Positions 2,582 to 59,314 of a stretch of 64,000 nt of DNA are shown here, in pieces. Both the position numbers and the translations under genes were made by a program. The number at the start of each line of letters is the position of its first letter. Position 1 is the first letter of the stretch. Source of the DNA: Ceratodon purpureus (lineage: Eukaryota; Streptophyta; Bryopsida; Pseudoditrichales; Ditrichaceae). Location: positions 22,591,792-22,655,791 of the forward strand of contig CM026423.1 of the NCBI GenBank assembly GCA_014871385.1, given 5' to 3'. A model generated the notes under the pieces. It did not search any database and was not told the origin of the DNA. It saw only the letters and a list, made by a program, of their open reading frames with translations.

Positions 2582-5500
2582 ATGCCGCGAAGAGTAGAGG
2601 CCTGGGATCAGTGGTGGTAAGACTTGGGCGTGGTGGGTGCGAGGCCTCAGAGACAGGTTAGGTGTAGAATTTGTAATGTGACTATTGTGTACCGTCGGGA
2701 TAGAATGTTCGCCCACTTTGGATACAGACCTTTAGGTGGTCCAGGTAACTACGGTATACAAATTTGCAGATTACTGAGTGCGCGGGTGAGGAGGTTGTTC
2801 GTAGACTGCGGAGGTGAAGTTCCTAGAAGAGAGCCCGATGATGTTCATGACATTGGCTTGGGAGGTGACGGGGTAATACCTCAAGCTCCTGATAACGAGG
2901 GGGCGCGCGCGAATGATGGGCCAGCTATGCAGGAGCCCGATATGGCACCCCAGGGTTCTCCACCCAGATGACCATATTCGTTATTTTGAGACAATTTCAG
3001 AACTTTGAGACTTTTTGCCTACAATTTCAGCAATTGTTTTTAGACAATTTGAACTTTTTTTTGACTTTCTAATTATAGATTATCCTCGACTCGAGGATAA
3101 TCTTCCCATATATAGTCAAAAAGTTTTTGACAAATATAGAATCAATCAAGAAATCAATGAAAAAGCTATAGTCAAGCATTAAATTGAGACTTTGAAAAGT
3201 CTCAATATAACGAATATGGTGTTCCAGGGAAATGCGTCAACTGAATATTGTGCAAGGATTCAACGCTTCCACGAAGCTTCGATTAGATAAAGTGTGGGCG
3301 ACGGCATTCTACGAAGCCAATATCCCATTCAACGTTGTTAAGCATCCTGCCTTCATTAACGCCGTTTGGAAAACAGTGCGATCCCGCTTCCCGGCATACC
3401 TGCCGCCATCGATGAATGCTATTCGCACAAAATTGTTGACCGCGAGAAAGGCAGAAATGGTGAGACAAGTAAAGGAACTCACGGGCAATTCCACAGAGAA
3501 ATACGGTGTTACGATATGTTCAGACGGTTGGGACAATGTCCAGAGTCGTCTTCTTCTGAATGTTATCCAGAGTGGGACCAAGGGCGACGTTTTCCTTGGA
3601 ACCATAGACACGACGGGACATTACAAAGATAGCGATTATATCGCTTCTGAGATCCGTCCGTTTGTGGATCGGGTCGGACCGCAACATGTTGTCCAAGTTT
3701 GCACTGACAATGCTCCGAACATGCTTGGATCCAATCGGATGCTCGAGACACGTTATCCTCACATTTATGTTCAAGGGTGTGCCGCACACTGCTTGGATCT
3801 GTTACTCGAAGATTGGGGGAAGGAGGATTGGGTAAAGCACATAGTCAGAAAGGCGAGACTTATTTGTCTATGGGTTAGAAATCATCATTCATCAATGGCT
3901 TTGTTTTGCAGGATGTATCCCAATCTGACCATCCGTTTGCCCGTTGAGACGCGGTTCGCGACCAATTTCACTATGATCGAGCGTCTTGTGGAACTTCGGA
4001 ATGCATTTGAGAGAATGGTCATCGATCCGGCGTTTGCAGGTATTTTAGCAACCTATCCTGATGTGAACAGCTCAGCAGGGAAGAGGGTCCGCCTATTTCG
4101 GAAGTACGTGCGTGCGGACGGTTTCTGGAACACGTGCCATAACTTCTTGTACATGGTCATCCCAGTGGTGAAGGCATTACGCCTTTTTGATGGGAAGGCA
4201 CCTGCAATGGGCCTAGCTTGGAGGGCGATGTACGATTTGAAGAACCACGTCCGCAGTTTTTCCTCCCATCCGTTTAGATTGAACGCGGACCTGGCAGCAG
4301 ACGCCATGGTCGCATTTGACCACAGATGGGCTATGATGTTGACAGATCTTCATTGGGCAGGTGCGATGCTGAACCCGACCCTACGTGGATGGGCGCCACT
4401 TCATAACCACGAGGAGTCGAGGATCATTTTAAACCGGGTTCTTCGCAAGTTATCGTCTAAGAAGGAGAATTACGTCCAGATCCTTGTCCAGTATCAGGAT
4501 TTCCTCGAGAATCGGGAGGCATTTGCTGATTCAACCGATCCCCAGGCGCACGGCACTGCTATCCACGAATGGTGGGACGCAATGGGAGGTGGAGCCCGGG
4601 CTCTCCAAACAATAGCTAGACGTATACTTGGACAGGTATGCTCCGTGTCTGCGTGTGAGCGCAACTGGAGCATGTACTCCTACGTGCACAGCAAGGTGCG
4701 CAATAGATTGAAACATGTACGAGCGGAGGACCTCGTGTATATCTACACAAACAGTAGACTCGTTCGTCACCGCCGGGCTCCGCGTCCGGCACAATGGTAT
4801 GGCTTGGAGGAGGTTCATTCCGACGATGACCTCGATGGCGAGGATCCGGACGAGGACGACAAGGAGGAAGACGTCGGACAGGGAGGAGACCATGTAGCGG
4901 ACGATGTGGCGGACGATGCCCGCATGGATGGTGTCGGACAGGGCGGATTTGGCATGGGGGGTGTCGGACTTGCGAACTACGATCCCCCCGAGAGCGACTT
5001 TGACGAATCCGGATCGGACGACGAAGGATCTGACGGTGTCGACGGTGGCGATGTCCGGATTGCCGAGCTCTTCCACAATATGTTCGACGAAGGACACCGC
5101 CGGGATGCGGTTGAAGATATCCTCCGCCAGGATAGTCGCGTCGGACGGCAGGCATATGCTGGAGGTGAGCATCGAGCTCAGAGTCCGATCAACGCAGCAG
5201 AAATACAGTCGGACAGAGGAGATGGTAGTCCGGCCCGGGGGATACCTATCGTCGACACGGACTTCTCGCAGCCTTGGAGTGATTCTTTGTCATTTGGCTT
5301 GAGGGATTTCGACGAGAACCTGGCGAACATGGAGGGAGAGATTTGAACAGTTTTTCAGGAGGATTTACCACCTATCAATCGCTGGAGAGATGAAATAACG
5401 GAGGAAGATTTGAGAAGTAGGATGGCCGATCAGGAAGTTCAGACCCCGTCTGAGGAAATACGCCGTCCCATAACTCGAAGCCTTGCTAGTACGTCCGGAA

Positions 5501-16749: not shown

Positions 16750-16943
16750 GGGGTCCTTGTACGACCTTAATATTCTGTAAGTACTAAATTGACCCTATTC
16801 GTGTGCTTTGTCACATTATATACTTAATGTTAATTTTTTCCCCGGAACCCAGCATATGCGAAGTGTCCGTTTAGGGTTTAAGAGTAATCGTATCAGGGGC
16901 TAACCAAGATACTGCGAGCAGGTCCGAAGTTCGCAGCACGAGG

Positions 16944-19900
16944 ATGTCCACCGGCGGATCGGGCACTCCCTCTAGAAGGAGGCCGAGCAGACCGGGCGGT
17001 GATGAGTCCGCCGGCGGATCGCAGTCCGCTAGTGGTTCCGGGAAGAGAGCCCGCAAAGAACAGGATTTGCAGCTGGACGTTTTCCACAATCGAGCGATAC
17101 TGGCTGGTGATGGCTGGGAGGAAGTGCCAGAGCCTTGGGACGCAACAACGGCTATGCATTTTGTCGACTTTCCTCATTTCAATCGGCTTTGGCCAGATAG
17201 TTCGCACGCACAACACTGTAAGTCGAAGAACGCGAAATACGCATCCTTGACAGACGTAGACGTGAAGTGGAGATTCCTCTGCATTCTTCGGGCAATTTCC
17301 AATGAATCGAAGTGGCCCAAGAACGAGATCTCGAAGGCTATTCTTTCCCTGATGTATGCCAAGCATGTGTTGAAGAAGAAGGTCGACTGGTCTACCTTAA
17401 AGACTCCAGGCTCCTCTTTCGGAGGTCTAGGAGAGAAATTGACAGCGAAGAAGCCGGTGCACATACCTTATATAGATGTGCCCGAATGGTTCAAGCGTAA
17501 TCCTTCCCTCATTGAAGATCCAGGGGGTCCGATACCGACAGACAGGGAACCGTCGAGGGCCGGGAGACCACGGCAACGCACAATACAGAATGCGACGTAC
17601 GAAGATCAGATGGCTGGCATGCTCGGATCCGATTGGCAGGGAAGTGGGTCGGACCCCATCATTGGCGGGAGTGCGGGAGAAGGGTCGGGCGCGGCGACTG
17701 CATCCCATACAAGGGATGGGGGGAACGATCGGACGGGATCTGCATGGGGACCATCCGAGGCAGGTGAGGAGAGTTCCGGGCCAGATGTGGCTATGGTCGG
17801 ATTGGAAGAAGTCGTCAACGCGACAGTAGCCTCCTTTTCGGGAGCTGACATAGACCTTGACATGGCGCACGATGGGGTCGGGAATGCGGACCCGAGTTTA
17901 GGTAGGTCGGACGAGGGTTTGGGTGCGTCGGACGAGGGTTTAGGTGGGTCGAACCACAGATTTGGTAGGAGAATCGCTCCGACAACCTCACGGGATTAGC
18001 GGATGCCCGGGTCGGAACACGGGTTATTTGGACAAGGTGCGACAACTAGCACTGCCCATCACGATCCTCCTCAACCGAGAGGTGCAGCAAATGTTGTATT
18101 GGGAGCAAACCCGGTAATGCGGCGACTGCTAGAGGAAGTTTTTGCCAAACATGACGCGGACGTTCGCGAATTAAAAGCAACAATAGGTGGTTTGGAACTG
18201 AAGATAGAGGCTCTTCGCGTGTCCGACAGCGGGGACCAGATCGCAGGAACGCCGGACACAGAGTTGATGCGAGAAAGGGACGAGGCGTTGAGATCCGCTG
18301 AGAGAGCAGAGGCAGAGGCTAATGCCTGGGAAAAGGATATGAAAGCCTCCATGTACGCAGCAAAATCGACCGAGGAGCTGACCATGCAGTTAAATGGCCA
18401 TCTCAGGGACGCTGAGGAACGCATTCTGGCGTTGGAAACGGAATCGAGGGAGATGAGCGTCCGACTCGAAGATGCAGAAAAGCGAGCAACAGCGGCGGAA
18501 GCCAGATCCACGGAGCGGGGTGTCCGACTAGAGGAATCCGAGATACGTGCGAAGGCAATGGAAGACGAATGTCGGAGACTGTCTCGCCAACTGGAGGAGG
18601 AGAAGAAGAATTCATCGAAGCAAGGAGTGATCATCCTGTCAATGGAGTCCAAAATGGAAGATCACAAGAAGAAGGCTTCGGACGCAATAGCTTTGGCAAA
18701 GAAAACGCAGGAAGAACTAAACGAGCTCCGGGAAGTCGCTACGACGAGCGACAACTTGATACGTGCGGAGGTAGAGGCGGAGAAAGAAGCAAACAATGCC
18801 AAGGTGGTGGAATTGGAGATAGAGAACCTGCGACTACTAGAGGAGGTAACACGGCTTGGGAAGGCCACTGGCGCTGTGAATGAAGGTGGTGCCAACGATG
18901 ATCCAATCGTGGGCTGGTCCGAGTCATTAACTCACGAGCAGAAGGCATTACTTTTGGGTGTGCTCCAAAAAACGGAGGATATGTACATGATTGCTATCCT
19001 TGCAGTAGCGGGGCAACTTCAGTACGAGAAAGAATTCAAGGCAATTCAGAAAGAGTGGACGGAGAATGGACGATTGCGACACTTGCTCCTCACCTCTTGG
19101 TCGCCTTTACAGACGATGTACCCTCCGGAATGGGAGGACAGTCCGGAGATGCTGTCCGGCACGGGCAGCATTCAGTGGGAGAATATTGCTGAGGTGGATC
19201 ATCAATGGAAGCGGGATCAGCAATGGGGGATGGGCAAGACCGAAAAAGAGCTGACGGCATTGACTTGGCCTGACCCGCACGAAATGACAAGTGACGGATC
19301 CCAATGCATCGTGTGCTTTAATCCTTTTGGCCCGGAGGGATGCTATCAACTGGGGACGTGCAAACATGGATTTCACCCATATTGTTTAATCTCGATGATG
19401 ATAAGAAGACGTGCGTGTCCAATCTGCTCAGCCCCTCTCCATCCTCGCCTGTATTTGACATTCGGATTGAGGGATTTCATGCCCAGGGGCTGGGCGTACG
19501 ATCCAAGAGAGTTCGACAAGGACTTCAAGCTCGGGGATTTCAAGGAAAAACCAATGGAGTGGGTCTGGCAACTACACACGTCGCAGCTCGAGATGTGGTA
19601 CCAATTTGAGAAGTCGGACTTGCTAAAGAGGCCGAAGACCATTATGCAAGCGGCCAATTTGTTGTACCCAGGGAAGCCTGTCGATGATGGAATCAAGCAA
19701 TACTTTTACCAGATGTGCAAACACTACTACGACCGTGCAAAGGGCCAGCTGGTCCCAGGGGACAATCCAAATCCAGTAAATTCACAAGGATTGCCTGCGA
19801 CACCAGACGACGTATTGGCAGGATTTCCGAACTGGAATAGGAGTGCTAACAGTGAGAACGAGATGGTTTACGAACAGGGTTACCACACGATGCGGCTAGA

Positions 19901-20246
19901 GATCCTCGCTTTCGAAGAAATGTTATGCAAAATTCTCCCCGCTACCAAGAAGAGGCTGGATAAGAAAGGATTGAGGCCCAAGCCGAAGGAGCCAGCATGT
20001 CGTCAACGCCTATTATCGAGTGGTGCTTCGACTTTAGGAACTTCAGGGGCCACACCAAGGAGCGCGACACCGCCGGGGAATTCCAGGAGGAACGCGTCAC
20101 GAACCCGTTTGAACCCAAGCCAGTCGGCACCTCCCTCCAGAGTCCCGACACCGCCGATTCCGCCGTCACAGGGCCCAACGCAACCTGGCCATGGTAGTGC
20201 AGCGTCCGGATCAGGTGATACATTGCAATTGGACGATTCGGAGTGA
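16944..20246 (+). pseudogene. coiled-coil RING-H2 protein, copy 1
   Basis: This is probably an E3 ubiquitin ligase-like protein. One frame is open for 1100 codons except TAG at 17997-17999, followed by CGG ATG. The first block shares EPW (17131-17139) and VDWST (17381-17395) with copy 2 at 30476-32858. The second block has a long coiled coil (about 18130-18880). Its RING-H2 finger has CIVC at 19305, CKHGFHPYC at about 19359-19385 and CPIC near 19417, giving C-x2-C, C-x-H-x2-H-x2-C, C-x2-C. The tail is Ser/Pro-rich. It sits upstream of a kinase-like gene in the same direction, as a pair that also occurs at 27-33 kb. Multiple GTCGGAC motifs lie in its coding DNA. The stop suggests a pseudogene; readthrough or a second start at 18003 is possible. 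Confidence 0.75.
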
Positions 20247-20759: not shown

Positions 20760-20990
20760 GGTGTCCCTTTATTTCCCGCTCACTTTCCCATCCTCTCGAG
20801 GCCTCTCGTTGGGATCCGAGACTCTGTTGTGTCCGTCGGGGCAGCGGCACTGCGCGGGTCCGGAGGGTCAGTAGAGCACGGGACCGATTTCAGAGACAAA
20901 CCCTTGCTAATTTATTTCAGGCTTCTGAACTGACTCGCCTACCCAAAAACCAATTGCTGATTGTTCTGTTTTCTTCTTTTCCAGGGTACC

Positions 20991-22415
20991 ATGGCAAATG
21001 AGAGTGGACGCATACATCAGGAATGGCGCTCCGACGGGAGCCCCACCGGAGCACTTGGGGTGGGCGGGGGGCGTGGCGGGGAGAGAACCAGGTTTAATCA
21101 GGAATTCACCCCGATGGAAAACCTCGGAGGAGGCCAATTGCAGGGAGCGCGGGGAACGCGGGGTGGCCATGGTTCCCGGAGTCACGGCTCTCGTGCAACC
21201 CATGGATCTGGGGGGCGACACGGCGCGATAGGGAGCCACGCCGCGGAAAACATTGGCAACCAAGGCACTAGGTGTGGTCCAGCGAGCTCGGGAAGTTCTA
21301 GCGGAGTACAAGCACCCGCCATGGAAATCGTCCCGCCACCTAAACCACTACCTAGGGTATTGTGGACATCGGCACCGTCCGACCAGTGTCCGCCGTCTAC
21401 TGAAGTCCGCCGTCTACCGCCGTCTACTACAGAGCGTAAGGGAACTAAGCGGGCAGAGGGGTCGCAAGGAACGGAGTCTGGATCGACCGCGTCCGGAAGC
21501 ACAAGCATCGGAAGAAGGTAGCCGCGTGTGACCAGCATTCCACGGAGGCTAGGGTTTGCTGTAGAAAGATAATTCTGGAATGGTTTGCAAGCCAGGACAT
21601 GCCATACTTGGAGAGTACATTCTTGAATGATGGTCCGGTGGGACTCGAGAAAGCTTCGAATGCTCTGAGGCTACTACTGCAGGAGGGCATGGCGGGGGAT
21701 GAGTTCCAGGAGGATAGAGGGAAGAGCAATTGGGGACAGTGGATCGAGGAACGGGTGCAGCAGACATTGTTCAATTCAACAGTGCCATTTAACATGTTGT
21801 GTGGACCTGGTTCGGGATGTAGTGGGGGAAACTCCGAGCTCCTACAGAAGCTGGAGAATTGGAAAAGAGGTGCTATCCTTGCGAAGAGGAAGGGAAGGAC
21901 TACACTGCCGAAGTTTGTCGGGAGAGCTCTGGCCGACGACATCGCTTCTCGGGACAGAAACGGTCAGAAGTGGCTACCGAAGGGTTCTTACGCCATCCCC
22001 GTAGACGAAAATAGTTTTCAGGGTTCGTTTGGAATCGTGCGAAGGGTGCGAATTGCAGAGGCATGTTTCATCCCGGAGTTGCTTCATTTTGCAGGGAAGA
22101 CCATGAAGGTGACTGACTTCAAGACAAGTCGCGATCAACGCTCTATCGAGGCAATGTCATGTCCAGTTGATCACCCTGGTGTGATTAAGCTGCAATACCT
22201 AAACCGGAAGACGCTAGAGCCGTACTCGCTATGGTGGAACGGAGGCTCGTTGAAGAACATGTGTGCATTCGATTTGAAATTTGGGGAAACCCATGAAATG
22301 GAACTCCTCAAAGACGCAGATCTGGACTTCGAGGCCCGGAAGAAGCTGGTCGTTTACCGGAAAAATCGAACTCACTTGGCCTGGGCTCTCATGTGCATTG
22401 TGGATGTGGTACACG
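20991..22415 (+). pseudogene. kinase-like protein, copy 1, truncated
   Basis: The chosen start is the ATG in ACCATGGC after the leader splice site. The N-terminal part is Gly/Ser/Pro-rich and low in complexity. The frame shifts by one base near 21505-21515, where both frames read a basic stretch. The second block (to 22415) matches the kinase-like gene at 27298-28886. It has a glycine loop (GSFGIVRRV, about 22022), a beta-3 lysine (HFAGK, about 22088), DHPGVIK and LWWNG. It stops before the catalytic loop, exactly where a CAGGGTTGT hAT-type end starts at 22416, so catalytic HND and DWG motifs are absent and the copy cannot be an active kinase. Confidence 0.75.
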
Positions 22416-22639
22416 CAGGGTTGTTCATGGGACAAAAGGACCGGTCCGTCCGTCCGGTCCGCTCGTCCGTCCGTTAGGGGTCAGAGGAGGTCCGTTTGAC
22501 CAGGACTTACGGTTGACCACCCAAATGGTGAAATGGGAGTTACCTTGGCCACCTAAGATGCCACGCGTCTGACATGTCACCAAATATTCCACATATACAG
22601 TTGACTTGGGGGATGACGTGGCTAAGAGGAAGGGGGCCA

Positions 22640-22915
22640 ACGCCTTGAGGGAGGGGGGCGCGAGCGGCTGAGGGGGGGGCGCGAGCGTCTTGGGAAGGGG
22701 GGCGCGAGCGAGGGGGCGCGAGCGACTGGGAGGGGCGCGGGCGCCTGCAAGGGGGGGGGGGCGCGAGCGCCTTTGATAGCCGGGGGGGGGGGGGGGGGGG
22801 GGGGGGGCGTGAGCGCCTGCGATGGCAGGGGGGGCGCGAGCAAGGGGTTTACGATGGGGGTGCGAGCGCCTGCGAAGGGGGGGCGAGAGCGCCTGCGAAG
22901 GGGAGGCGTGAGCGG
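22640..22915. repeat. G-rich array, left subterminal
   Basis: About ten units of GGGGGGCGCGAGCG followed by a spacer resembling CCTGCGAAGG, with one G run of about 25 near 22783-22807. The core GGGGGCGCGAG is shared with four other arrays in this element, but this spacer is specific to this array. Open frames through it are Pro/Ala low-complexity artefacts. Confidence 0.85.
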
Positions 22916-23194
22916 GGAACAAGAATCAACCATTGAAGGAAATTAAGACATGACTGAAGTTTTCATAGTGACATAAATGAGAGAAGTTTCAATTCATGTC
23001 GAAACAAAATTACATTCAATAGCCTTTGCTAATGTTTTATGGACATTGACTAAGGTTAACATATAAGTATCTACGTATAAAATTTAGATATATATATATA
23101 TTATATTTTTTTGTGTTTTTTTAAAATTATTTTGGAGACATATATATTATGTTTTCTCTATATAACTTCTATATGTAATATGCTAATAGATGTA
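22916..23194. other. 3' flank of hAT transposase gene
   Basis: AT-rich sequence downstream of the minus-strand transposase. It probably contains its polyadenylation region. No other feature was found. Confidence 0.5.
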
Positions 23195-26100
23195 TTACTT
23201 TTTTTTATTTTTTTTGACGGTGCGCCGCTCTGGATTCCTTTGAGTACCGGGCATACCCAATGGTACTCTTACAACAATGTCTTCATCATCAGGTGCTTCT
23301 TCACGGCTATCTTCTGATGAGTAATATCCTTCTGAGGATTTCGACCCCTCGTCATCTCCATCTCCCCCCTGATTAGGCACATACTCCTCCACCGTGGAAT
23401 GAATGTTGCGCAATTTGTGGTCAATTGTACCATCCACCACTGTGGTCACAATTCTTTTGATCTTCCGTCTTTTGGTCTTATCGGTGATTCCGTCCACATT
23501 CATTACGGGTAATCTACGTTTACCCACAGCCACAGGTAAAGACGGGGTAGTTCCAACAGTATATCCTGAAAAAAAAGGGCGAACGTTTGTTGGACCTTTC
23601 CGTGACCGTATCACTCCATGACGCGTCGTAGAAGGTCCAGCTGGTAGACTTCGTCCAGAAGAAGTGAGTGGAATGCTTGTATTCGGTGTTGGAGTTAATG
23701 AACCATGCCCAGCAGAAGTGCTTGAACGGTGTGGGGGAGGTCGACCCAACCCTGCAAGTACTGCTCCGATTGAAGGTGTACTCTGGGGCAGGGGTGTTTG
23801 AAACAATCGGCCAATAGGAATTTCATCTTCTTGTCCATTTCTGACTATCTGTGATTGTTCATTTCTTGGAGGGCTTTCATCCAAACCTCCGGACCTGATT
23901 GTTTCCTCAACATTTACTGGCAGAGTGCCTTGGAGTTGTTCAACTTCTTCTCCTCCCTCAACGTCTTCTGGAATTGGAATTTGCTCTCCCATGTTGTTAC
24001 CCCCTCCTTCATTGTCATTGTTCGAAACGCTACGAACGGGGTGAATGTCATCATTATTGCCACCATCGTCGCTTTGATGCTGAGTCATTTCGACTTCAAA
24101 TTCATCGTCAATATCATCGTCTGCCCGATCGTATGCGACCTCGCCTCTAGTTTGTATTTCATTGACAACGTGGTGAGGCGAAGTAGCTGCCTCTTCATCA
24201 AATCCTGCCCAGTCAAAAACTCCATTCGGCTGGTTAACGGGTTCAGTGCGTGGCATGTCACCATCAGCATTGTCCACGGGTAACTCCTGATACTCATCAT
24301 CCATAGTAGCAGGAGTGTAATGAACTCCACCGTCATCACCATTGCCTTCATTATCTTCAAGTCCGTCGTGGAATCCTTCCTCTCCATCATCATCACATAC
24401 GTCTTCATCGTACATGGCTGGAACTTCTTCATCCGAGTCTTCGGAGAACGGTTGGTTCTCGTACCAAAGAACAGGATCCGCTCCACGTCGTTCTCGAAGG
24501 AGCTTACTGTTCGTGTAAATGTACACCAAGTCCTCTGCCTTCTTCACGGCCAATCGGTTGCGAACCTTACTGTGAACAAAGGAATACATGCTCCAATTTC
24601 GCTCACATGATGATGCCGAGCATGTTAACGAAAGGATGCGCTTTGCTATCAACGGTAACGCATCGCCCCCAACCCGCTGCCACCATTGATGAGGTAGCAT
24701 CTTAGTCTGTCGAATGTTTGGGGCCTCCAAAGGGCTGAATGGACCGGTGCGTTCCTCAAACTGTGTTAGCTCGAACAACACAGTATCGTGGTCCAGTTTA
24801 AGGCACTCACTCAAATGAATTAGCACTTGCAGGAGTGCACGCTTCGCAGCACTGTTAGTCAATAGCTCGTGGCTCTCCGGGAAAATGTAGGGATTCAAAA
24901 TGGCGCCTGCGTAATGGAGATCTGTCAACATCATCTTCCATCTCTTCGTAAAATGTTTCTCAAAGCGCCCTGCTATAGCGGGGTCTAGGAAAAAAGGATC
25001 ACCCCGTAGACGGAATACATGCTTCTTCAAATTATTCATGGCCAACCATGCCCTCCCCATTGCCGGTGTTTGTCCATCAAAGGTCTTCAAGGTCACAACA
25101 GCCGGCTTCATAACATGCACAAGATCCTCACAACGTAACCAAAATGTCTCATCGAGAATGGTACTCCGTACTTGACATGCTAAGGCGTGAGCTCGATACC
25201 CGTTTGACCGATTGAATAAAGTACCCACATATTCGTCCCATTTCGGACTGGCTACCACCTGGATTAGTGGCTCCCTCAGTTCAAGCAATTGAACAATCAT
25301 CAAGTATTGGCATCCAAATCTTGTCTCCGCTGGTAACAACAGAGACAACTTCGGGCTGAATTGGCGAAACAAAGCCATGGTGACATGACGGCGACGTATA
25401 AAATTCGGTATGCGTTTTGCCAAGACAATCAGCTCTTTGAAGGTTGCTTCCTTCTCCCAATCTTCTAGGAAGAGGTCCATGATGTGAGCTGCACAACCTT
25501 GCTTGTAAATGTGTGGATAAGCTTCTACCACATGGTCCATGGCTCCCAACATCGCACTAGCATTGTCGGAGCAAATCTGTACCACATTCTGCGGTCCAAT
25601 TTCTTTGATGTACTCTTTCAATTTCCCAGCTATGTATGCCTTTGATTTCTTGTACCCCGTTGTATCAATGGAACCCAGGAATATATCTCCTGCTGGACAC
25701 ACAAGCATGACATTCATCAACGGCCGATGAACAACGTCGTCCCATCCATCCGAGCAAATAGTTGCCCCGTACAAGCTAATACACTGCTTCGTTTTCTCCT
25801 CTATTTTCATCTTGAGAAGCTGCTTTGTTGGCTGGATGTGCTTGGTTCGCATTACGTTGTATGCTGGTGGACGGTAGACAAAACCTGCTTTCGATGTTGC
25901 CTCCACAGCTGCGATAAAAGATTGATGTCTAACCACATTGAAAGGCACATTCGCTTCGTAAAAAAAGGACGCCCATTTCTCATCCAATTCATTGCGCATT
26001 CCAATCTGATAGGCCTCGGGAAAACTTTGTTGCCGCATAGATCTTGGTGTACATGAATCGCCTCTGCTTACAGGCGGAGTTGACTGAGACGGTTGAACTT

Positions 26101-26479
26101 GAGAAATCCTCTCCTCTTCGACCTCCTCCGTTCTTTGAGGCACTTCTGTAGATTGCTCAGCAGGCATAGATTGGCTCGAACATGGTGCCAAGTGTGCCAA
26201 GTGTGCCTCGCCATCACCACCGTCAGTGCCGTATATCTCCGCATGTGTCATTCTTTTTGGTATTACATTACCACAATTGGCAAAGCGCCTAAATACGGCG
26301 GCAGGGGCCTTGGTACAATGACTCTTGCTTGAACCTTCACCCCATCCATAGTGCTTCATAGCTCTTTGTCGTTTATAACGAAAAGTGAAATTGCACCACA
26401 CACATTTAACATGGTCCTTATCAATGAACGTCCACCACGGAGCCCACTCAGCCGTCGACTGACGCTGTTGACCTGCCAT
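23195..26479 (-). CDS. hAT-family transposase, copy 2 (intact)
   Basis: An uninterrupted 1094-codon frame. The start is the ATG at 26479 (MAGQQRQ); a leader 3' splice site (CTTGCAG) lies 40-45 bp upstream on the minus strand. Order: BED-like finger (VKCVWCN, about residues 27-55), DUF659 core with SDGWDD and CSDNASAM carrying the expected acidic residues, CAAHIMDLF, hAT C-terminal dimerisation block with CERNWSMYSFVHSKVRNRL, then a long acidic and Ser/Thr-rich tail of more than 400 residues ending in lysines. It would act in the nucleus on the ends of its own element. The conserved core and lack of stops suggest recent activity. The tail is unusually long for this family and also occurs in copy 1. 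Confidence 0.9.
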   Translation of the reverse strand: MAGQQRQSTAEWAPWWTFIDKDHVKCVWCNFTFRYKRQRAMKHYGWGEGSSKSHCTKAPAAVFRRFANCGNVIPKRMTHAEIYGTDGGDGEAHLAHLAPCSSQSMPAEQSTEVPQRTEEVEEERISQVQPSQSTPPVSRGDSCTPRSMRQQSFPEAYQIGMRNELDEKWASFFYEANVPFNVVRHQSFIAAVEATSKAGFVYRPPAYNVMRTKHIQPTKQLLKMKIEEKTKQCISLYGATICSDGWDDVVHRPLMNVMLVCPAGDIFLGSIDTTGYKKSKAYIAGKLKEYIKEIGPQNVVQICSDNASAMLGAMDHVVEAYPHIYKQGCAAHIMDLFLEDWEKEATFKELIVLAKRIPNFIRRRHVTMALFRQFSPKLSLLLPAETRFGCQYLMIVQLLELREPLIQVVASPKWDEYVGTLFNRSNGYRAHALACQVRSTILDETFWLRCEDLVHVMKPAVVTLKTFDGQTPAMGRAWLAMNNLKKHVFRLRGDPFFLDPAIAGRFEKHFTKRWKMMLTDLHYAGAILNPYIFPESHELLTNSAAKRALLQVLIHLSECLKLDHDTVLFELTQFEERTGPFSPLEAPNIRQTKMLPHQWWQRVGGDALPLIAKRILSLTCSASSCERNWSMYSFVHSKVRNRLAVKKAEDLVYIYTNSKLLRERRGADPVLWYENQPFSEDSDEEVPAMYDEDVCDDDGEEGFHDGLEDNEGNGDDGGVHYTPATMDDEYQELPVDNADGDMPRTEPVNQPNGVFDWAGFDEEAATSPHHVVNEIQTRGEVAYDRADDDIDDEFEVEMTQHQSDDGGNNDDIHPVRSVSNNDNEGGGNNMGEQIPIPEDVEGGEEVEQLQGTLPVNVEETIRSGGLDESPPRNEQSQIVRNGQEDEIPIGRLFQTPLPQSTPSIGAVLAGLGRPPPHRSSTSAGHGSLTPTPNTSIPLTSSGRSLPAGPSTTRHGVIRSRKGPTNVRPFFSGYTVGTTPSLPVAVGKRRLPVMNVDGITDKTKRRKIKRIVTTVVDGTIDHKLRNIHSTVEEYVPNQGGDGDDEGSKSSEGYYSSEDSREEAPDDEDIVVRVPLGMPGTQRNPERRTVKKNKKK

Positions 26480-26676
26480 TCTCCGTGTCTCTAAAAAAGT
26501 ACAATGATCTCCTGTCTGCAAGTGTTAGTATGACACATGTGAGAAAAAAATGGTATGTGTAGACATCAACCAGAGGCCAATGTGATGCACATAGTCTCAA
26601 GCAAGGAGCCCACAAGGAGTTCCGGGACTAGAGGCCATGATTTCAAATGATATTAGGATTGGGCAAAGTTGGTGGC

Positions 26677-26683
26677 ATTTATA
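26677..26683 (-). promoter_or_regulatory. TATA box of hAT transposase copy 2
   Basis: TATAAAT on the minus strand, directly downstream (in gene orientation) of the G/C array at 26690-27085. Confidence 0.55.
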
Positions 26684-26689
26684 CTCGTG

Positions 26690-27085
26690 AGGGGGGGCGC
26701 GAGCTTCGCATGGGGGGGGGGGGGGGGGGGGGGGGGGGGGGCGCGAGCGTCTCCAGAGGGGGTGGCGTGAGCTTCTCAGGGGGGCGCGAGCTTCTCCAGG
26801 GGGGGGCGAGCTTCTCCAGGGGGGGGGCGTGAGCTTCTCCAAGGGGGGGGGCGCAACCTACTGCAAGGGAGGGCGCGAGCTTCTCCAAGGGGGGGGCGCA
26901 ACGTACTGCAAGGGGGGGCGCGAGCTTCTCTAGGGGGGGGGGCGCAACCTCCTGCAAGGGGGGGCGCGAGCTTCTCAGAGGGGGTGCGCGAGCTTCTGGA
27001 AAGGGAGGGGGCGCGAGCTTCCAGAGGGGGGGGCGCGAGCTTCTAGAGGGGGGGGGGCGCGAGCTTCTGTAAGGGGGGGAGGCAC
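26690..27085. repeat. G-rich array upstream of hAT transposase promoter
   Basis: About 17 units of roughly 22 bp, GGGGGGGCGCGAGCTTCTCC-like, with a run of 30 G at 26712-26741. In transposase orientation the core reads CTCGCGCCCCCC. It ends a few bases before the TATA box. The spacer (CTTCTCCA or CTTCTGTAA) differs from those of the other arrays. Confidence 0.85.
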
Positions 27086-27297
27086 CCTTGTACGAGGGGC
27101 AGTCCCGGTGAATGGGCCATACAGTTTTTAAATTTTTTTTTAAAAACATTCTTTCGTTCCATTACAAAACCAACAATAGCATTTCATGTTCCACCGAGGC
27201 ACGTATACTCCGAAAAAATGATTTATTAAAATATTAGAAATGTGCAAACAAGGCCACATAGGCAATCAAAATGTTCCAAACGTAAATCACTATAGAA

Positions 27298-28886
27298 CTA
27301 CAATGTGTATCTAAAACAACCATTGGGAGCTTGGAAGTTGTAAGGGGGGCTCATCAAATCATTCACAACTTTTGCAAGTGAAAGCCTCTTTGTAGGATCT
27401 TCGTTAAGCAAGCCATCCAACTTTGATGAGAATACAATCTTTGAGATTGAATCCTTGAAGAGTTCTGGGCAATCTTCTTCTCTCCATATTGTCTTTGCCA
27501 AATGGCCTACCGAAAATGCATCAGATAGCGTCGTACATGGATGCATCCTCTTCATGCGCTCCAAATTCCGTTCCTTATGATCTTTGTTGCCATATAAAAA
27601 GAACAACTCCGGTGCAACTCCTACCCTCCTCTCCTTTACTCGTACAAGATCATCGGGGTCCCTCACACCATAAGGAGAGGCCTTCTTCTCAATGACTCTG
27701 CTTGCCATACCCCAATCGCACACACCAATATATACTTTATCCTTGTCATGAGGTGGAAAGTGGAGTAGAATGTTGGATGGCGTTAAGTCGTTGTGGAGGA
27801 TTTCAGCTTTATGGACTATGTCCATAACGTAGATGAGACTCCATGCCAACATTCCCCGGTTCTTCCAATAGGCAACAATTCTTTGGCACTCTTCCATGGG
27901 CATTTCCCTCGACTTCAAAATTTCTTTGTAATCTGTTGCCTCGGTTGCCTTCTCATTTAATTTGAGGAAGTTGCGGAGGCAATCTCCATTCCACCACAGG
28001 GTATAAGCTTCCATGGTCTTAGACTCTTAGAGTGAATGGCCCAAAATTTTATCACACCCGGATGCTCTACGGGGTTAACCGTGGCCTCAATTGCCCGTTG
28101 CTCTCGCTGCTGCACTTCAGTTTTAGCCTTGGAAAGTTTTCCCGCAAATTCTATGTGAATTGGAATTTTCTTCATATTGGCTATTCGCACTTTTCGCACT
28201 TTGTCATACCCCCCCTCGGCATTGAAGCCAGATAATGGCACAACTTTGGCCGTAACCGGAATCCATATCAATGCACCATACATGTGTGCTTCCAATGCTG
28301 AGTTCAACGCTTGCTCATTCCAAGGCATAATCTTTGTTTTCCCCTTAGAACATCTCTGACATGCCTCCTGAACCGCTGTCAGTTTTTGAATAAACACTTT
28401 GTCTTGGTTGCTCCATTCTTCGCCTTGTGGTTTCTTCACATGTGATTCAAACACATGAATGACATTTGTCGTAGCACTACTCACTTGTTGTGTCAACCAC
28501 TTCGGGCTGTGAAAATACTTCGTCATGCAATCCATGTACATCTCTGATCCTTCCAATGCGCTCCAAAATTCCCTTTCCAAATCACGTTGGAGGTTGTAGA
28601 TACCATTCTCTCCTTGATCAAGGTACATTGCCTTCAACGCGCGTATGGTACGGGCCCTGTAGTACTCGACGGTCACCTTCCTGATGAAATGCGTATACTC
28701 CAATGGTGGATAACCGTCATCCTTCTCGTGCGCCGCAATACTCTTCTTCTTTTTCCCCTTCGAGCTAGATGAAGGAGTAGAACCAGTAGAACCATGAGGT
28801 CTTAGACAACTCATAGGGTCCACCGCATCTGGAGCATCCAAGTCCTCATAGATAGGCCGCTTGCCGGAGCCTTGTCTAGAAGACAT
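27298..28886 (-). pseudogene. kinase-like protein, copy 2, with 8-bp frameshift
   Basis: The start is the ATG at 28886 (MSSRQGSGK), 10-15 bases after a TTTTTCAG leader splice site. The first block ends soon after NPVEHPGVIKFW; the second continues from EAYTLWWNG to the stop. An 8-bp near-duplication at 28017-28032 causes the shift; without it the frame is about 526 codons. Kinase features: AGK lysine (HIEFAGK), catalytic loop HNDLTPSNILL (about 27783-27805), metal-binding CDWG in place of DFG (about 27707), and an APE-like VAPEL. These fit a protein kinase fold with unusual HND and DWG motifs. The Lys/Ser-rich N-terminus is not recognised. It is the partner of the RING gene at 30476, transcribed divergently. 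Confidence 0.8.
28017..28032. other. probable hAT excision footprint
   Basis: TCTTAGAC directly followed by TCTTAGAG. The two octamers differ only at the last base of the first copy, C against G, which are complementary. An 8-bp duplication with a complementary change at the junction is what hAT excision typically leaves. Removing 8 bp joins the two kinase frames at the residues found in copy 1 (KT.EPYSLWWNG). Confidence 0.7.
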
Positions 28887-28914
28887 CGCAAAGTAAATCC
28901 CTGAAAAAAAAATC

Positions 28915-29195
28915 AACAACTTTCCCCCCCCGCCCCAATGAAGACTTCCCACATAAGCAGTTCCAAGCAAGGCGTGTTTTCACACGTCAGGACAAGGAGC
29001 CGCAGTGGGAAGGAGTGGGGGGGGCGAGAGCTTCTCCCCACCTTATATAGTCCCCCACGGACCCGCTCGCGCCCCCCCCTGAACCCGCTCGCGCCCATTG
29101 TACCCGTTCGCGCCCCTGAACCCTCTCGCGCCCCTACCCGTCCGCGCCCCCTTGACCTGTTCGCGCCCCTTCGGACACGCTCGCGCCCCCCCTCC
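28915..29195. repeat. C-rich array upstream of kinase-like gene 2, with TATA box
   Basis: About seven units of CCCGCTCGCGCCCCC-like sequence lie at 29060-29190. On the minus strand a TATATAA box at 29043-29049 follows the array in the gene direction. A G7-C9 purine/pyrimidine patch is at 28922-28932. The array core is the complement of the GGGGGCGCGAG core at 22640-27085. Confidence 0.75.
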
Positions 29196-30035
29196 CACAT
29201 TTTCTTTTGGTTTTTTTTTTCTTTTTTTCTTTTTTTCTTCTGAAAATAGTCGAATCTCTGCACTACTTTCTAAGAGAAAAAAAATAAAATAAATACTTAA
29301 AAAAACAAATTAAAAAATAGAAACTCTGGGGATTTTATACATGCACAACCTCTCATTCAGCTCTCTTCCACTCAATGCTATTGATTTCATTTTATTCCGT
29401 TTACCTCCCAAACCAATTGCATCAAGCCCCTTCCTAACGGTTCTTTTTTTTTTTAATTATATGTTAGAGCATTGTAGGATCCGTATGTACAATGCATTAT
29501 ATTTTTTATTTTTTTAAACTCTGATCCAACTCTCTTCCACACCATGCTATTCTTTTAATTTTATTCCGTTTACCTCTTCCTCTCCATGATATTGATTTTA
29601 TTTTATTCCCTTCGTCTCTTCCAATGTTTTATCTTTTTTAGTTTTCCACATCACTTCTAATATTAATGCACTAATTTTTTTGTAGTCAACATTATATTAT
29701 TCACGGTGCATTAGATCAGTATTCCGTTATGGCATAACTCAGTTTGTAATCATCATGGGATTTATTCATCTTGATAACTTCTTTCATCCCATGTTATTCA
29801 TCCCTTTTTATCCCGAGTCTCTTATTATAGTCATGATTGTTTTTCTATAATTTGATATCTCATCCCCAAATTATTCAAATCAGTATTCCTTATTTTAATA
29901 TCTCTTTGTAATTTTTTATTTTTTATTTTAATTTTGAGAGAAATGGTGAAAAAAGCAATTGCATTTCTTTGTATTATTGTCTTCCAACCTTCTTCAATGC
30001 TACTCCTAAGTAAAATCAGAGAATTTTTCATGGTG
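29196..30035. other. AT-rich spacer between divergent promoters
   Basis: T-rich sequence with repeated TTTTATTCCGTTTACCTC-type fragments (about 29390, 29565 and 29605), so partly a degenerate repeat. No gene was found. It separates the kinase-like gene (minus) from the RING gene (plus). Confidence 0.6.
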
Positions 30036-30039
30036 AGGA

Positions 30040-30140
30040 CCCTCTGGCGCCCACCCCTGGACCCGCTCGCGCCCCCCCCCGATACCCGCTCGCGCACCTC
30101 CCCCTGAACCCGCTCGCGCCCCCCTCCCCCGACTATATAA
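30040..30140 (+). repeat. C-rich array and TATA box of RING gene 2
   Basis: Three CCCGCTCGCGCCCCC units (about 30062-30125) are followed by TATATAA at 30134-30140. This repeats the array-then-TATA layout of the other two genes of the element. Confidence 0.7.
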
Positions 30141-30190
30141 GTGAAGGGGGCGCCCTCCCCCCCCCCCACTTTTTAAGCTCCACCTTGGCA

Positions 30191-30420
30191 CTCAGGCCTT
30201 GAACTACCTCGCGGTGGCTTATTGCTGAGTACTTGGGTGGGGTCTACAGCATTTTCAGAACGCCACGTACCCCGTTCAACCGTATTTTGTACGCTCATCC
30301 GGGAATTTGGGCCCTAAACTACCTCACGGTGGCTTATTGCTGAATACTTGGGTGGGCCACAAAGTATAGTTAGAATACCATAATCAACCACGTACGAAAT
30401 TTGTAAAATCATTTGGGGGA
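30191..30420 (+). repeat. tandem duplication in RING gene 2 leader
   Basis: Two copies of about 115 bp, each with AACTACCTCRCGGTGGCTTA followed by TTGCTGARTACTTGGGTGG, start near 30191 and 30305. Their downstream halves have diverged. They lie between the TATA box and the ATG at 30476, so they are transcribed leader sequence. Confidence 0.75.
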
Positions 30421-30475
30421 AGTTTTGAGGAGTTGGTGTGTTTTTTAACACACAAAACTTCACCAGTAGACCACG

Positions 30476-32858
30476 ATGGAGGGAAACCCAGCTCCGGCAG
30501 CGGAACCGCCATTCACCAAGGCGGAAAAGAAAAAAATCAGGGATCGTGAAAGGAAGCGTGGTGGTAAGAAGATGAAGAAGCGGCTTCATGTGTTGAACAA
30601 CCCGACAAAGTTGGCATTTAGAGGTTGGCAAGATGAGCCGGAACCGTGGAAATATTCCACATGCGAGGAATTCATTGAGTGGTGCCACATCACAAAAATA
30701 TTTCCACACGATCGGCACAGAAAACACAGGATCTCAGACAAGGCTAACCTCTATTATTGCTTGAATGCGGAGTTTGTTGAACGTTCTATACAAGTTTACC
30801 AGCATCTATACAAGCAATCTTGTGTCGAACGCAATGAAGTACCATTGTTCATTTGCAGAATGGTGTATGCTGAGGTGGTGCTTCACAAAGTGGTGGATTG
30901 GTCCACCATCAAATCCACGGCGAGTGTTAGGGCGCCGACAGAGCGTGACATTCCCAAACAAAGGAAATACGCAGATGGTGGCCTGGGAAAAAAAAATGAA
31001 GGTAAAAACACAAGTGCGGGAGCCTGATACAGCAGAGTCTGAACCAGATTCTGATTCCGATGGTCGTCGTGGAGAAAGAGTGCCACGTAGAATTGCAGCA
31101 CCAGCAAATATGGCTGTAGAGCCTCCAATGAACCATCCAGCGGACGTCATAGAACCTCACGACGATGCGAACACCATCTTCGTGGAAAACGATCCAAATA
31201 CGGCAGCTAATTTGGAGGTGGTCGGAACTGAACCTACGATGGTTCTTGGCATGCCGGTTGTAGTTAGAAATGACCAGTCTAACCAAACCGAGGAGGTCGG
31301 GGAGTTACAATTACAGGTTATAGAAAAGGATGGCTTCATTGCAGAGTTACAAGAGACCATCCGAAAACTACGATTGGAATCAGCAGCAAAAGATGCAGTA
31401 ATATCAGATTTGCGCAATCAATTGCAAGAACGAGAAAGACCTCAGTCTTCTCAAGCCAATGATATACCTGTAGTTCAGGATCCAATGTTGGTGGATGAAT
31501 CTTACATCAACAACACAGTTGATGTTGCGACGGCCGGTGTGTTGGAGAATATTTCCACACCAGCAAAACGACGACGAGTTGGAGTGATATTGCCTCCACA
31601 AGCCCCATACCCGCGACCCTATGTGGACATCGATGGACCATTAAGTCAAGATTCCTTGTCATTTCCACCCAATGCTCTAACGGGAGAAGTGGAGACATTG
31701 ATGAGAGCCAATAATGATTTGCGGCTCCTTGTTTCTAAGTTTGCTAAAGCATACTACGAGTGGAAAGTGGCAACCATTCTCAGCGTTGATCGCGGTCGCC
31801 AAATTGCATTAGAGTTCAAGAAGATCGACGAATCGTACTTGCAACACAACAGACGAAGGAATTTTGGCCTCACTTCATGGACTAACGCAGATGATATGTA
31901 TCCAGATAACATGCCAAAGCAAGAATCGAATCCTGAACTCATAGATTGGGCCCAGTTGAATTTCGATGTGAAGAACGCAACTTCGTGCCATGATCTTCAG
32001 ATGAAGGAAGGAGTTAATAGCAGAAAGCTTTGGCCAAATCCTCAACCGTGGGTGATGGATGGTTCAAAAGAATGTAGTGTGTGTATAAATACATTTGGTC
32101 CTGAGGGTGGATGGGCAGTTGGATCATGTCCCCACATGTTCCATCCAATGTGTTTAATTAACATTTTTTTGGTTAGGAGATTTTGCCCAGTGTGCAAATC
32201 CCCGTTCCATGAACGCTTGTACGAGGTTTCTGGACTCACTCCATACATGCCACCAAGCCATGAGAGAAATCCCGAAAACACACCAGGTGAACAGTACCGC
32301 AACATGTGGGGGGAAGATTTGATTTGGAGTTGGCGGGCCCAGACTCACTCGGTCTTCAAGAGCAATGTAAGTGACGAGTTGGGGTGGGAGGATGACCCCA
32401 ATCAGATTGTGAGGGTGGCAAAGAAGATAATTGGATCAAAGAAGGAGGACGAAGGGAAACGAAATTTCTTCTATCAGACTTTGAATGGATACTGGGATAC
32501 GAAGAATAGGAAGTTCCAACTTGGTAATCACCCAAAAGGCCTCATATGGAACAAGGACGGGGAATTGGTTACAGACCTCGAAGGTCAATTCATGTCTTTG
32601 ACCGCCCGAGATGCAGTTCAAATGTCTCTTTCGGAGTGGAAGTTAATTTTCAAACATGAGGCTGTTGACTTTCTTCTGGAGGAACACTCTCCACAGACAT
32701 TGCGTACATTGAGAGAATTGAGGAACTCGCAAATTCTGCGTTCTCTCAGTGAAAGTGATGGCCCATTCCGGCGGACACGGACGAGAGCCAGGCGCAGCTT
32801 GACGCTGGACGATGGAGCGGGACCAAGTGGCACAGCGGGAGTAGATGCAGATGAATAG
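30476..32858 (+). pseudogene. coiled-coil RING-H2 protein, copy 2, with +1 frameshift
   Basis: The frame opens at ATG 30476 with a Lys/Arg-rich start and continues through EPWKYSTCEEF and VDWSTIK. At a run of nine A (30988-30996) it passes into a second frame, open to 32858. One A fewer would join the two into about 793 codons. The second part has a coiled coil (about 31300-31440), a Pro-rich linker, then a RING-H2 finger: CSVC at 32073, CPHMFHPMC, CPVC near 32185. The block after the finger is shared with copy 1 (RLYEVSGLTPYMP). It would act as a ubiquitin ligase-like protein; the substrate is unknown. It forms a divergent pair with kinase-like gene 2. The frameshift may be a mutation, a sequencing error in the run, or slippage. 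Confidence 0.8.
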
Positions 32859-33109
32859 GAATAGTTACAACTTAGTACTAAGTGACTAGTTTTCATATAC
32901 TACAGTTTTTGTAATGTTTTGGTTTGAATTGGAAATGAAATGCTTTTACTTTCATAAATGTATACAACATTGCAAAGTCCATGTATTTTGGGTCACGAGT
33001 ATCTGAATTTACACATTTGTCATTGCGCTTAGCCCCAATATATTATTCTGATGAAAATGTTAGGTTTTTTTGCATTGTCAAAAATTTACTATCTACAAAA
33101 TGGGCCGCA

Positions 33110-33196
33110 CGAAAAACCCGCTCGCGCCCCCCCTGAACCCGCTCGCGCCCATTCCCCCTGAACCCGCTCGCGCCCCCCCCCCTTGAACCCGCTCGC

Positions 33197-33229
<33 letters not shown>

Positions 33230-33307
33230 CCCGCTCGCGCCCCCCCTGAACCCGCTCGCGCCCCCCCTTTGAACCCGCTCGCGCCCCCCCCCCCCTTCAA
33301 CCCGCTC

Positions 33308-33340
<33 letters not shown>

Positions 33341-33360
33341 ACCCGCTCTCGCCCCCCTAC
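33110..33360. repeat. C-rich array, right subterminal
   Basis: About nine units of GAACCCGCTCGCGCCCCCCC with C runs of 28 (33198-33225) and 27 (33311-33337). The orientation is opposite to the left subterminal array, so the two flank the element as inverted arrays. Confidence 0.85.
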
Positions 33361-33479
33361 ACATGCTGGCACCCCTTTTGCATATGTCGAATTCCCCGTC
33401 ATCGTTCGTTGTCCATGTCATCAATATGTTTCCCCTATAGGTAAGTTGTAAAAAAAAAAAACTAACTTAGTAATTTTCC

Positions 33480-33582
33480 TCCTCCCCTCAATGTCCGATT
33501 ATGTCCGGGGACCGACCGGTCCGTCCGTCCGTCCGTCTATGTCCGGAAATTTTGCCCATGTCCGTCCGATAAGACAACCCTG
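33480..33582. repeat. right hAT-type end with GTCCG repeats
   Basis: Repeated GTCCGTCC and ATGTCCG motifs lead to the terminus ACAACCCTG at 33574-33582, the complement of the CAGGGTTGT that starts the left end at 22416. Inside it, TTTTGCCCATG matches the left end CATGGGACAAAA apart from one base. Confidence 0.65.
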
Positions 33583-38471: not shown

Positions 38472-40190
38472 ACTTATAATACTTTTTCTTAGTTTTCTCC
38501 CACGCCCAAGTAGGGCAGATTGTACCCAATTCACTTGCAATACAAATTCATTCACTACATCACAGCCCCCCCCCCCTACAACACTCTCACAAACACACCC
38601 CATAACGCTCCCAACCATAACTCACCCCGCCCAACTCTCCTATCTCTCCACCATCCATCCCGACTCCCCCTACAACACCCCACAAACTGCTCCCGCACAC
38701 ACACAATGCAACCATCTCACAAGCACCCCTTCAAATTCCCCGCCCAAAATCACCACCCCGGCCGACGCCCCACCCAACTCTATCGCACTTGATCACACAA
38801 ACCGCATCACCACAAATATACCTACAACAACCCCGCCCATAATCACCACACTACCCACACCCGATCCTCCTCCATCCCCCCAACCGCACCATCCCTTCCT
38901 ACAAAAACTTTCTGCACAATCCCATACTCCATTATGTCACCTTTCCCGTTTCCCCCTGATCGCCCAACTCCGCCCAAAAATTCCCAAATTCCCCGATCTT
39001 TTCTTCCTTCCCAAAACCCCTTACTTAATTCTCGCAACCACTCAACCGTCTCCAACATTCGGATCTACCATCCCCGACCACCCCCACTCTCCAACTCCCC
39101 CTCACTCCGACAACACACAACAAATTCCCCGACCCCCACTAATTCACTCAACAAAATTACCCACAAAATTTTACTCAATCAAACAATTGTTCAATAAAAC
39201 CAGCAAACCCCACCTTTACCCACACAACACTCACACCGACCCCAACACCCCACCCAAAACCACTTTAGTCCGCATTCCCTCTCCACAACACACCTATTGT
39301 TCAAACTAGCAGAGCACCGTTCCTTTTTCACAGCAAAGAATTATCTTAACTCACTCGAGCCCCCCTTCTCGACACAAAATCTCAAACCTCTACGTCCCAC
39401 ATTTCCCCTCAAAACCACCACTGTTCGACATCCCCTGGTTGATCACAAAACCGAAAAAAAATTTCACCCAACAGATCACACACGATCCTTACTCCTTCGT
39501 CTCTCAGACACCAATCATACCATTCACCTACCCACACTATTTCAATCCCCCCGTATAATAAAAAACCCTATTCCCATCAATACCTCCACATTTTTTTATT
39601 ACTATAATTCTATAAATCTACAACACAACCATTCCCACTCTTTCACAGATAAATCTACCAAACCAACTCAAATTTTAAATAACACCCCTCTAATAAAAAC
39701 AAACTTTAAACATCCCCACCCTCCTAGACACCCCAAACTCGCAACACACAAATTATACCATAACAAATGGATAATGAATACCCACGTTCCACTCCAAAAG
39801 TTAACCAAAAACCCGACCGTCCACAAAACTCCTAACAATTCCTTACCAAACCACGAATATCCACAAAAAACTTATCTCTCAATTCTACCACTGAATGGAC
39901 TCGGCCTACCGGCCTCGTCCAAATCAAAACTTTTCCATCCACAAACCTATATCCAAATAAACTCACACTTACTCTATCAAAAAACAAACACCGCTATCCA
40001 ACTAAACCCTAAATCTCTAAACCACCAAAACATTTCACAAACCCAATACCAATACAAACCTAACTACCATCATAACAAAAACCCTATATCCACTATCCAA
40101 AAACACCTAGTAAACTCCCCCCCGAAAAAATACTATCTATACCACTCCATCCTTAAAGTACCTTACCAAAGAAACACCTCACCCCAAAAA

Positions 40191-59311: not shown

Positions 59312-59314
59312 ACC

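Follow-up and report, generated by a model that had tools for sequence, protein, structure and literature searches.

Positions 22416-33582 of the 64-kb window, that is, of the whole stretch of DNA analysed, constitute one copy (11,167 bp) of a hAT transposon family in Ceratodon purpureus, the elements of which measure 11.2-11.8 kb, or about 11.5 kb. Genes encoding a transposase (T), a protein kinase (K) and a coiled-coil RING-H2 protein (R) are located between the element ends, CAGGGTTG...CAACCCTG. The element, its ends and its genes are placed as follows:

22416..33582, no strand: whole element copy, with ends common to other copies and without target-site duplication
22416..22424, + strand: left terminal inverted repeat CAGGGTTGT (end comparison among copies)
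23195..26524, - strand: hAT transposase frame (T), 1109 aa, or 1094 aa from the first ATG (open frame and profile matches; 42 copies scored)
27298..28886, - strand: protein kinase gene (K), broken in the window copy near 28020 (Pkinase profile; copy comparison)
30476..32858, + strand: coiled-coil RING-H2 gene (R), broken in the window copy near 30990 (profile; copy comparison)
33574..33582, - strand: right terminal inverted repeat ACAACCCTG (end comparison among copies)

Short terminal inverted repeats, a hAT feature, are present (CAGGGTTGT / ACAACCCTG). The left end lies at the position of window 22416 in 28/30 transposase loci (window included), reading CAGGGTTG in 27 of these 28 and CAGGGATG in one, and the right end at 33582 agrees with other copies of the family, so that the related ends reported in a preliminary description of this DNA recur on other copies. 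The 8-bp target duplications proposed there, likewise a hAT feature, were recovered in part: they are perfect in 9/14 copies for which both ends were read and missing in five, among them L033, for which only seven flank bases were read, and the window copy itself, the flanks of which (GGTACACG / AATATAAA) show no target-site duplication.

Linkage was scored for 42 transposase copies (96-100% identity), while the K and R counts derive from the best 150 matches each. K is located upstream of T on the same strand in 41/42 T copies, and K plus a divergent R beside 36/42, a shared gene order that supports the idea of one multi-gene hAT element. The divergent K and R pair is found for at least 118 of the best 150 K copies, where 200 random placements gave a mean of 0.2 and a maximum of 3. 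Among the matches listed, R is not in range for 6/42 T, 26/150 K are without R within 30 kb and 24/150 R without K within 30 kb. Because the K and R counts cover the best 150 matches each, lone genes are uncountable and K-R pairs undercounted, and an apparently lone K or R may be a pair with its partner outside the matches listed; locus L016 has K without R among the matches listed, yet its R was read directly. A transposase alone between such ends, the case against a single unit, was not established, as the one T without a listed K (C6:85697413) has a kinase 3′ end in its flank. Nested insertions of unrelated elements could merely resemble such a unit, and other transposon genes do occur in the neighbourhood of the window copy, which is itself without a duplication. 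However, many dispersed loci share gene order, strands and ends and show 8-bp duplications, and independent nested insertions were rejected on these duplications and the linkage counts, leaving this explanation a negligible probability. Judged from sequence, the unit is a high-copy hAT DNA transposon family with three predicted genes, each in one open frame.

The T protein product contains the DUF659 (Bitscore: 109.9; cut-off: 34.7) and Dimer_Tnp_hAT (Bitscore: 28.4; cut-off: 21.4) domains, in accordance with its initial annotation as a hAT transposase. The hAT superfamily has a catalytic acidic triad, known from Hermes, and the stretches SDGWD, C[ST]DNA and CERNW, candidates for this triad, are common to T and to a second transposase (T2) in the window. 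A DSLSF motif considered as a link between R and T occurs in 20/25 R relatives, in 0/28 T relatives and once in T2, and was treated as chance.

The kinase-like gene of the preliminary description scores above the Pkinase cut-off (Bitscore: 34.0; cut-off: 31.7), with a frame that, in the window copy, is interrupted by a near-perfect tandem duplication of 8 bp absent in 6/6 other copies; about full-length frames (at least 531 aa) are open in 105/150 scored copies and broken in 45/150. Residues K250, H362 and N369 are invariant in 42 aligned sequences (of 83 relatives found), D364, D388 and G390 are kept at 90% or more across the same sequences, and DWG occupies the position at which most kinases have DFG. 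The structure model (pLDDT 83) has a kinase fold, with matches to kinases. By profile, catalytic residues and modelled fold, K is a eukaryotic protein kinase with predicted phosphotransfer activity.

The annotation of R as a coiled-coil RING-H2 gene holds for its copies, in which, as in most aligned relatives covering it, the C3H2C3 zinc-ligand pattern is present; the window copy scores below the Pfam cut-off (PF13639; Bitscore: 24.8; cut-off: 27.3), and its frame breaks within an A-run of variable length among copies. About full-length R frames (at least 795 aa) are open in 94/150 scored copies and broken in 56/150, and in 63/118 pairs neither the K nor the R frame is broken. Given the broken K and R copies, many copies of the element are dead or helped in trans. 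The R profile matches RNF24 (e-value: 2.7e-07), and the structure model is of too low confidence (pLDDT 57) for a fold to be assigned. R is of the RING-H2 type by its zinc-ligand pattern, and a putative ubiquitin ligase.

Non-synonymous to synonymous change (N/S), expressed against a context-matched null, is 0.58 for T (30 copies), 0.46 for K (seven copies) and 0.58 for R (six copies), values reached by 0/500, 0/500 and 1/500 shuffles, respectively, while the two wrong frames of the same alignments give ratios of 1.00-1.39. The comparison of copies indicates that purifying selection acts on T, K and R, in each case only in the proper frame, and the constraint on K and R is similar to that on the transposase within this multicopy family. 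No clear constraint was detected in T 1-150 (48/500 shuffles as low), the T tail (ratio 0.86; 105/500), K 1-200 (120/500) or R 200-400 (110/500) when each was taken alone, nor are stop codons in K rarer than expected (7 vs 4.7).

Genes related to all three are also found in the same window, where they are grouped into a putative second family by their relatedness to T, R and K:

3211..5346, + strand: T2, hAT transposase of the putative second family (43% identity to T over 533 aa)
16875..20246, + strand: R2, coiled-coil RING-H2 gene of the putative second family (relatedness to R)
20961..22414, + strand: K2, kinase gene of the putative second family, interrupted by the left end of the element (31% identity to K over 289 aa)

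R2 shares 29% identity with R over 157 aa in the N-terminal region and 31% over 297 aa in the RING region, and K2 has 126 matches in the genome. No hAT-like end pair with identical 8-bp flanks was found in the window for the second family. The six hAT matches that coincide with K2 to within 40 kb were set aside, as the lowest listed score exceeds that of T2 itself. T2 clusters with the transposase of locus L065, being nearer to it than to T in the tree, and no K or R was observed in the 7.6 kb upstream of the latter, upstream being the only side read. As a hAT control free of K and R, L065 accordingly says nothing firm on gain or loss of these genes, given the one side read and the position of T2 nearer to L065 than to T. 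A contig of another genome (L066) encodes R at 64% identity and shares the right end. Its arrays are similar, and its repeat unit differs from that of the window element, as does its R; no K was seen on this contig, which is too short to show T. A tblastn search against phage records gave no match, and of 14 stretches in viral contigs that matched a pattern none was confirmed.

Gene capture by transposons is known, and telling an accessory from a cargo protein can be difficult (review PMC6431247); K and R might be host-captured passengers of no help to the element. The purifying selection on both, similar to that on the transposase, argues against this, as do the relatives of T, R and K in the same window and those in the protein collection, where identity falls to 35% for R and to 26% for K (the most distant K relatives may be ordinary kinases); we regard passenger genes as very improbable. 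That the three genes form one mobile unit and are kept by selection for the element is the reading we prefer, at a probability of roughly 0.88 on the sequence evidence.

The non-coding segments of the element harbor arrays of a short motif:

22646..22914, + strand: left subterminal array, motif GGCGCGAGC, units of about 14-23 bp (motif scan)
26678..27079, - strand: T TATA box and upstream GGCGCGAGC array (motif scan)
29041..29190, - strand: K TATA box and GCTCGCGCC array (motif scan)
30039..30145, + strand: GCTCGCGCC array and R TATA box (motif scan)
33115..33357, + strand: right subterminal array, motif GCTCGCGCC, units of about 23-27 bp (motif scan)

The 9-bp motif is present in 28 exact copies, against 0.01 expected, with 15 located left and 13 right of K, all in non-coding segments and none elsewhere in the 64 kb. 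Its orientation is strict, one per element half, in the window copy and six other copies, which upholds the inverted subterminal arrays first described, and its copy number varies between element copies. The TATA boxes ahead of T, K and R, also recognized at the outset, each adjoin an array. The motif orientation tracks the nearer element end and not gene direction, and end recognition alone could therefore explain the arrays.

In the mechanism we propose, T would cut and paste the whole unit, and K and R would be accessory genes serving the element rather than passengers. The arrays at both ends and at the three promoters would be read by an element protein, with the N-terminus of T and the basic N-terminal part of R as candidates, and this would couple end recognition to expression. 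By phosphorylation and ubiquitination, K and R would determine how active or stable T is, or how active or stable the silencing proteins recruited to the arrays are. As to the targets of K and R, auto-regulation or anti-silencing via the arrays, by analogy with VANDAL/VANC, is our tentative first choice: an element protein, at best guess R, would bind the 9-bp motif and strip silent marks or bring K and R activity to silencing proteins. The exact non-coding motifs, their variable number and the joint divergence of repeat unit and R in L066 are consistent with this, as is the binding of VANC21 to a 9-bp motif arrayed densely in one orientation in non-coding regions (PMC5735166). The orientation by nearer end rather than by gene, for which end recognition could suffice, and the low-confidence model of R speak against it. 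Turnover of the transposase is a less likely target, with K phosphorylating the acidic T tail and R ubiquitinating T, which would limit overproduction. The tail (414 aa) is acidic (D+E 20%; net charge -43), most of 12 relatives inspected also have a serine/acidic stretch close to the C-terminus, and K and R are both element-encoded; however, the tail is nearly unconstrained within the family, and serine and threonine make up only 14% of it. Other host proteins are a slightly weaker candidate again, and any further target has only a slim chance.

Elements of the hAT superfamily are usually regarded as one-gene parasites. Ac has one gene, with short terminal inverted repeats, 8-bp duplications and subterminal repeats, and the moss element resembles Ac/Ds in these structures and in its hAT domains; Ac is smaller, whereas the moss element spans 11.2-11.8 kb and carries two more conserved genes. 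En/Spm (TnpA/TnpD) and MuDR (mudrA/mudrB) are two-gene plant DNA transposons likewise equipped with an accessory protein, with TnpA binding subterminal repeats, but belong to other superfamilies, and none of their accessory proteins is known to be a kinase or a RING protein. VANDALs are Mutator-like, unlike the moss element with its hAT transposase and putative motif binding, and we know of no VANC that is a kinase or RING protein. The dense same-orientation short-motif arrays in non-coding regions of the VANDAL/VANC system are also found in the moss element. Ac measures 4.6 kb (PMC3260210). In VANDAL21 (Hi, Arabidopsis; VANA, VANB, VANC), several genes in one DNA transposon are similarly combined with dense 9-bp non-coding arrays (PMC5735166). 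The giant mobile Burro elements of planarians share accessory domains, including one that takes its name from a RING zinc finger and one with a frequent role in ubiquitination, but are Gypsy-like LTR retrotransposons that encode these domains either within a giant polyprotein or in accessory ORFs, and the review concerned mentions no kinase (PMC6431247). ToxhAT / ToxTA of fungal wheat pathogens, a cargo-carrying DNA transposon formerly called hAT, differs in its 2-bp TA duplication and 74-bp terminal repeats and is now placed with Tc1/Mariner by its authors (PMC12506042). Among the top-ranked titles and abstract openings in the literature, no hAT element with a kinase and RING gene set was found.

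There is a nearly even chance that the element represents a widespread moss hAT lineage with a kinase and ubiquitin-ligase pair that has descended together with the transposase across deep divergence and serves to manipulate transposase control or host silencing via co-evolving arrays. K and R are about as constrained as T, which suggests that conserved signalling functions can be part of such elements. The family makes self-control of a DNA transposon, or its evasion of silencing, by post-translational modification testable in a laboratory moss, and C. purpureus gene annotations may include many element-borne kinase and RING genes.

The element at window positions 22416-33582 holds three genes. 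The hAT transposase (T) and the protein kinase (K) share a strand, whereas the coiled-coil RING-H2 gene (R) is divergently oriented. A genome search with T gave 1544 first-look candidates, from which 42 copies were scored (96-100% identity; 35/42 stop-free). The 3′ end of the kinase gene occurs in each of 30 T loci compared and the left terminal inverted repeat in 28 of them (window included in both counts). Short sequence stretches on the right-hand side, covering 27 loci, show the R C-terminus in 23 and the right terminal repeat in 16. In L014, one of the four loci without R in the stretch, the gene falls just beyond it. Where both ends could be aligned, five other copies measure 11.6-11.8 kb. 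Genome searches with K and with a piece of R recovered at least 150 copies each. The preliminary description had named several copies with the same gene order as support for a single element, and coordinate comparison shows such copies, with K present for 41/42 T copies and, among the matches listed, K plus any R in range for 36/42 and R as the nearest neighbour in the expected place for 35/42. Furthermore, a divergent R lies 3.3-9.5 kb upstream of 118/150 K copies among the matches listed, versus at most three divergent K-R pairs in random placements (n = 200). K without R within 30 kb (26/150) and R without K within 30 kb (24/150) were also observed among the matches listed, and their partners may fall outside these matches. 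All three frames are open in 16/36 trio loci, and both in 63/118 K-R pairs. At the level of sequence, these comparisons establish T, K and R as one unit.

Flanking 8-bp duplications had been named as further support, and they occur in a proportion of copies: a perfect duplication is present in nine of the fourteen loci with both ends read, and none in the remaining five, namely the window copy and four others. The absence of a target-site duplication from the window copy points to a rearrangement following its insertion. The K gene of this copy additionally contains an 8-bp near-perfect tandem duplication (28005-28030), absent from 6/6 other copies, which resembles what a different hAT element might leave as a footprint on excising. 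Full-length frames are present in copies at other loci. Two loci on contig C1, L015 and L020 (near 4.26 and 4.30 Mb), lie 37 kb apart and share the right flank but not the left, which suggests local duplication.

The window is carried on contig C3 of the 362-Mb genome. Among the matches listed, broken copies are commoner on contig C6 than on other contigs, for K (27/56 versus 18/94) and for R (30/53 versus 26/97). C6 (110,524,308 bases) is likely a sex chromosome and very probably the V, as a contig of identical length encodes the C. purpureus protein KC19_VG232100. By the sizes stated in a commentary (U, 110.5 Mb; V, 112.2 Mb; PMC9273592), C6 would instead be the U; its identity is of no consequence for the findings on the element. 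Elsewhere in the window, positions 35553-45012 and 59313-61122 contain long frames that resemble reverse transcriptase and RNase H in places and look like LINE-type retrotransposons. A DUF4218 match (47823-48827, minus strand) resembles a CACTA-type transposase fragment.

The element interrupts a further kinase gene, K2 (20961-22414), which is 31% identical to K and belongs to a second family. K2 is preceded by the RING-H2 gene R2 (29-31% identical to R), and the transposase T2 (43% identical to T) is located approximately 11.5 kb left of R2, in an order and on strands unlike those of T, K and R. There are 126 K2 matches in the genome, small contigs included, many with an open 654-amino acid frame.

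At an E-value of 0.001, the protein collection yielded 25 relatives of R, 83 of K and 28 of T, although the most distant K and T relatives may be of other families. In K, the kinase domain is accompanied by a helical region at the N-terminus, and the catalytic-core lysine, HxD motif and asparagine are conserved over the 42 sequences aligned from the 83 relatives. The predicted K model (pLDDT 83) best matches protein kinases among solved structures. R, with 23/25 relatives aligned, has conserved N- and C-terminal regions, together with a coiled coil and a C3H2C3 RING that matches solved E3 RINGs; its predicted model is weak.

Selection was assessed by re-placing each variant randomly in the same trinucleotide context (500 shuffles).

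N/S ratio relative to expectation, and shuffles as low
T (30 copies): 0.58; 0/500
T 1-150: 0.61; 48/500
T core: 0.42; 0/500
T tail: 0.86; 105/500
K (7 copies): 0.46; 0/500
K 1-200: 0.73; 120/500
K kinase domain: 0.40; 0/500
R (6 copies): 0.58; 1/500
R 1-200: 0.44; 9/500
R 200-400: 0.68; 110/500
R 400-793: 0.58; 40/500

Wrong-frame reading of the identical alignments gave ratios of 1.00-1.39. Stops numbered 9 in T (15.6 expected), 0 in R (2.2 expected) and 7 in K (4.7 expected), the last indicating that some K copies are dead. The pattern of variants demonstrates constraint on all three genes.

The 9-bp motif GGCGCGAGC occurs fifteen times left of K and its complement thirteen times right of K, confirming the inverted subterminal arrays described previously. 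Every exact copy in the 64-kb window lies inside the element and none in its coding parts, with 0.01 copies expected in the non-coding parts under a first-order model. The arrays are found at both element ends and beside the TATA box of each of the three genes. The strict orientation recurs in six other copies, with 13-21 motifs on the left and 6-23 on the right (the right part of L019 being incomplete).

A relative was found in another genome on the 4.9-kb contig L066 (1-4906), which encodes R at 64% identity and has eleven CGCGCCC units around the R promoter and three near the right end, in a single orientation. Its terminus carries CAACCCTG, and no match to K or T was found on these 4.9 kb. 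The contig is filed under the uncultured cyanobacterium assembly AVDCRST_MAG81 and is probably a mis-binned, plant-like transposon contig. A 71-nt segment is repeated in the window R leader (30195-30380) and, by eye, is also seen before R in L066.

Among the titles and abstract openings of the top-ranked papers, from literature with few subscription journals, none concerned a hAT element that carries both kinase and RING genes, which constitutes weak evidence of absence. In a review of giant eukaryotic transposons, hAT, kinase and ubiquitin have no whole-word mention, but a RING-zinc-finger motif, as well as a domain linked to ubiquitination, is named for giant Gypsy-like elements of planarians (PMC6431247). 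Among the systems found, the one whose described mode of action comes closest is VANDAL/VANC. There, according to published accounts, a protein encoded by the element binds arrays of a 9-bp motif in its non-coding regions (PMC5735166) and removes silent marks (PMC5735166; PMC10398659). The moss element lies outside the VANDAL family. In the proposed mechanism, T would move the unit, an element-encoded protein would read the arrays, and K and R may modify T or silencing proteins.
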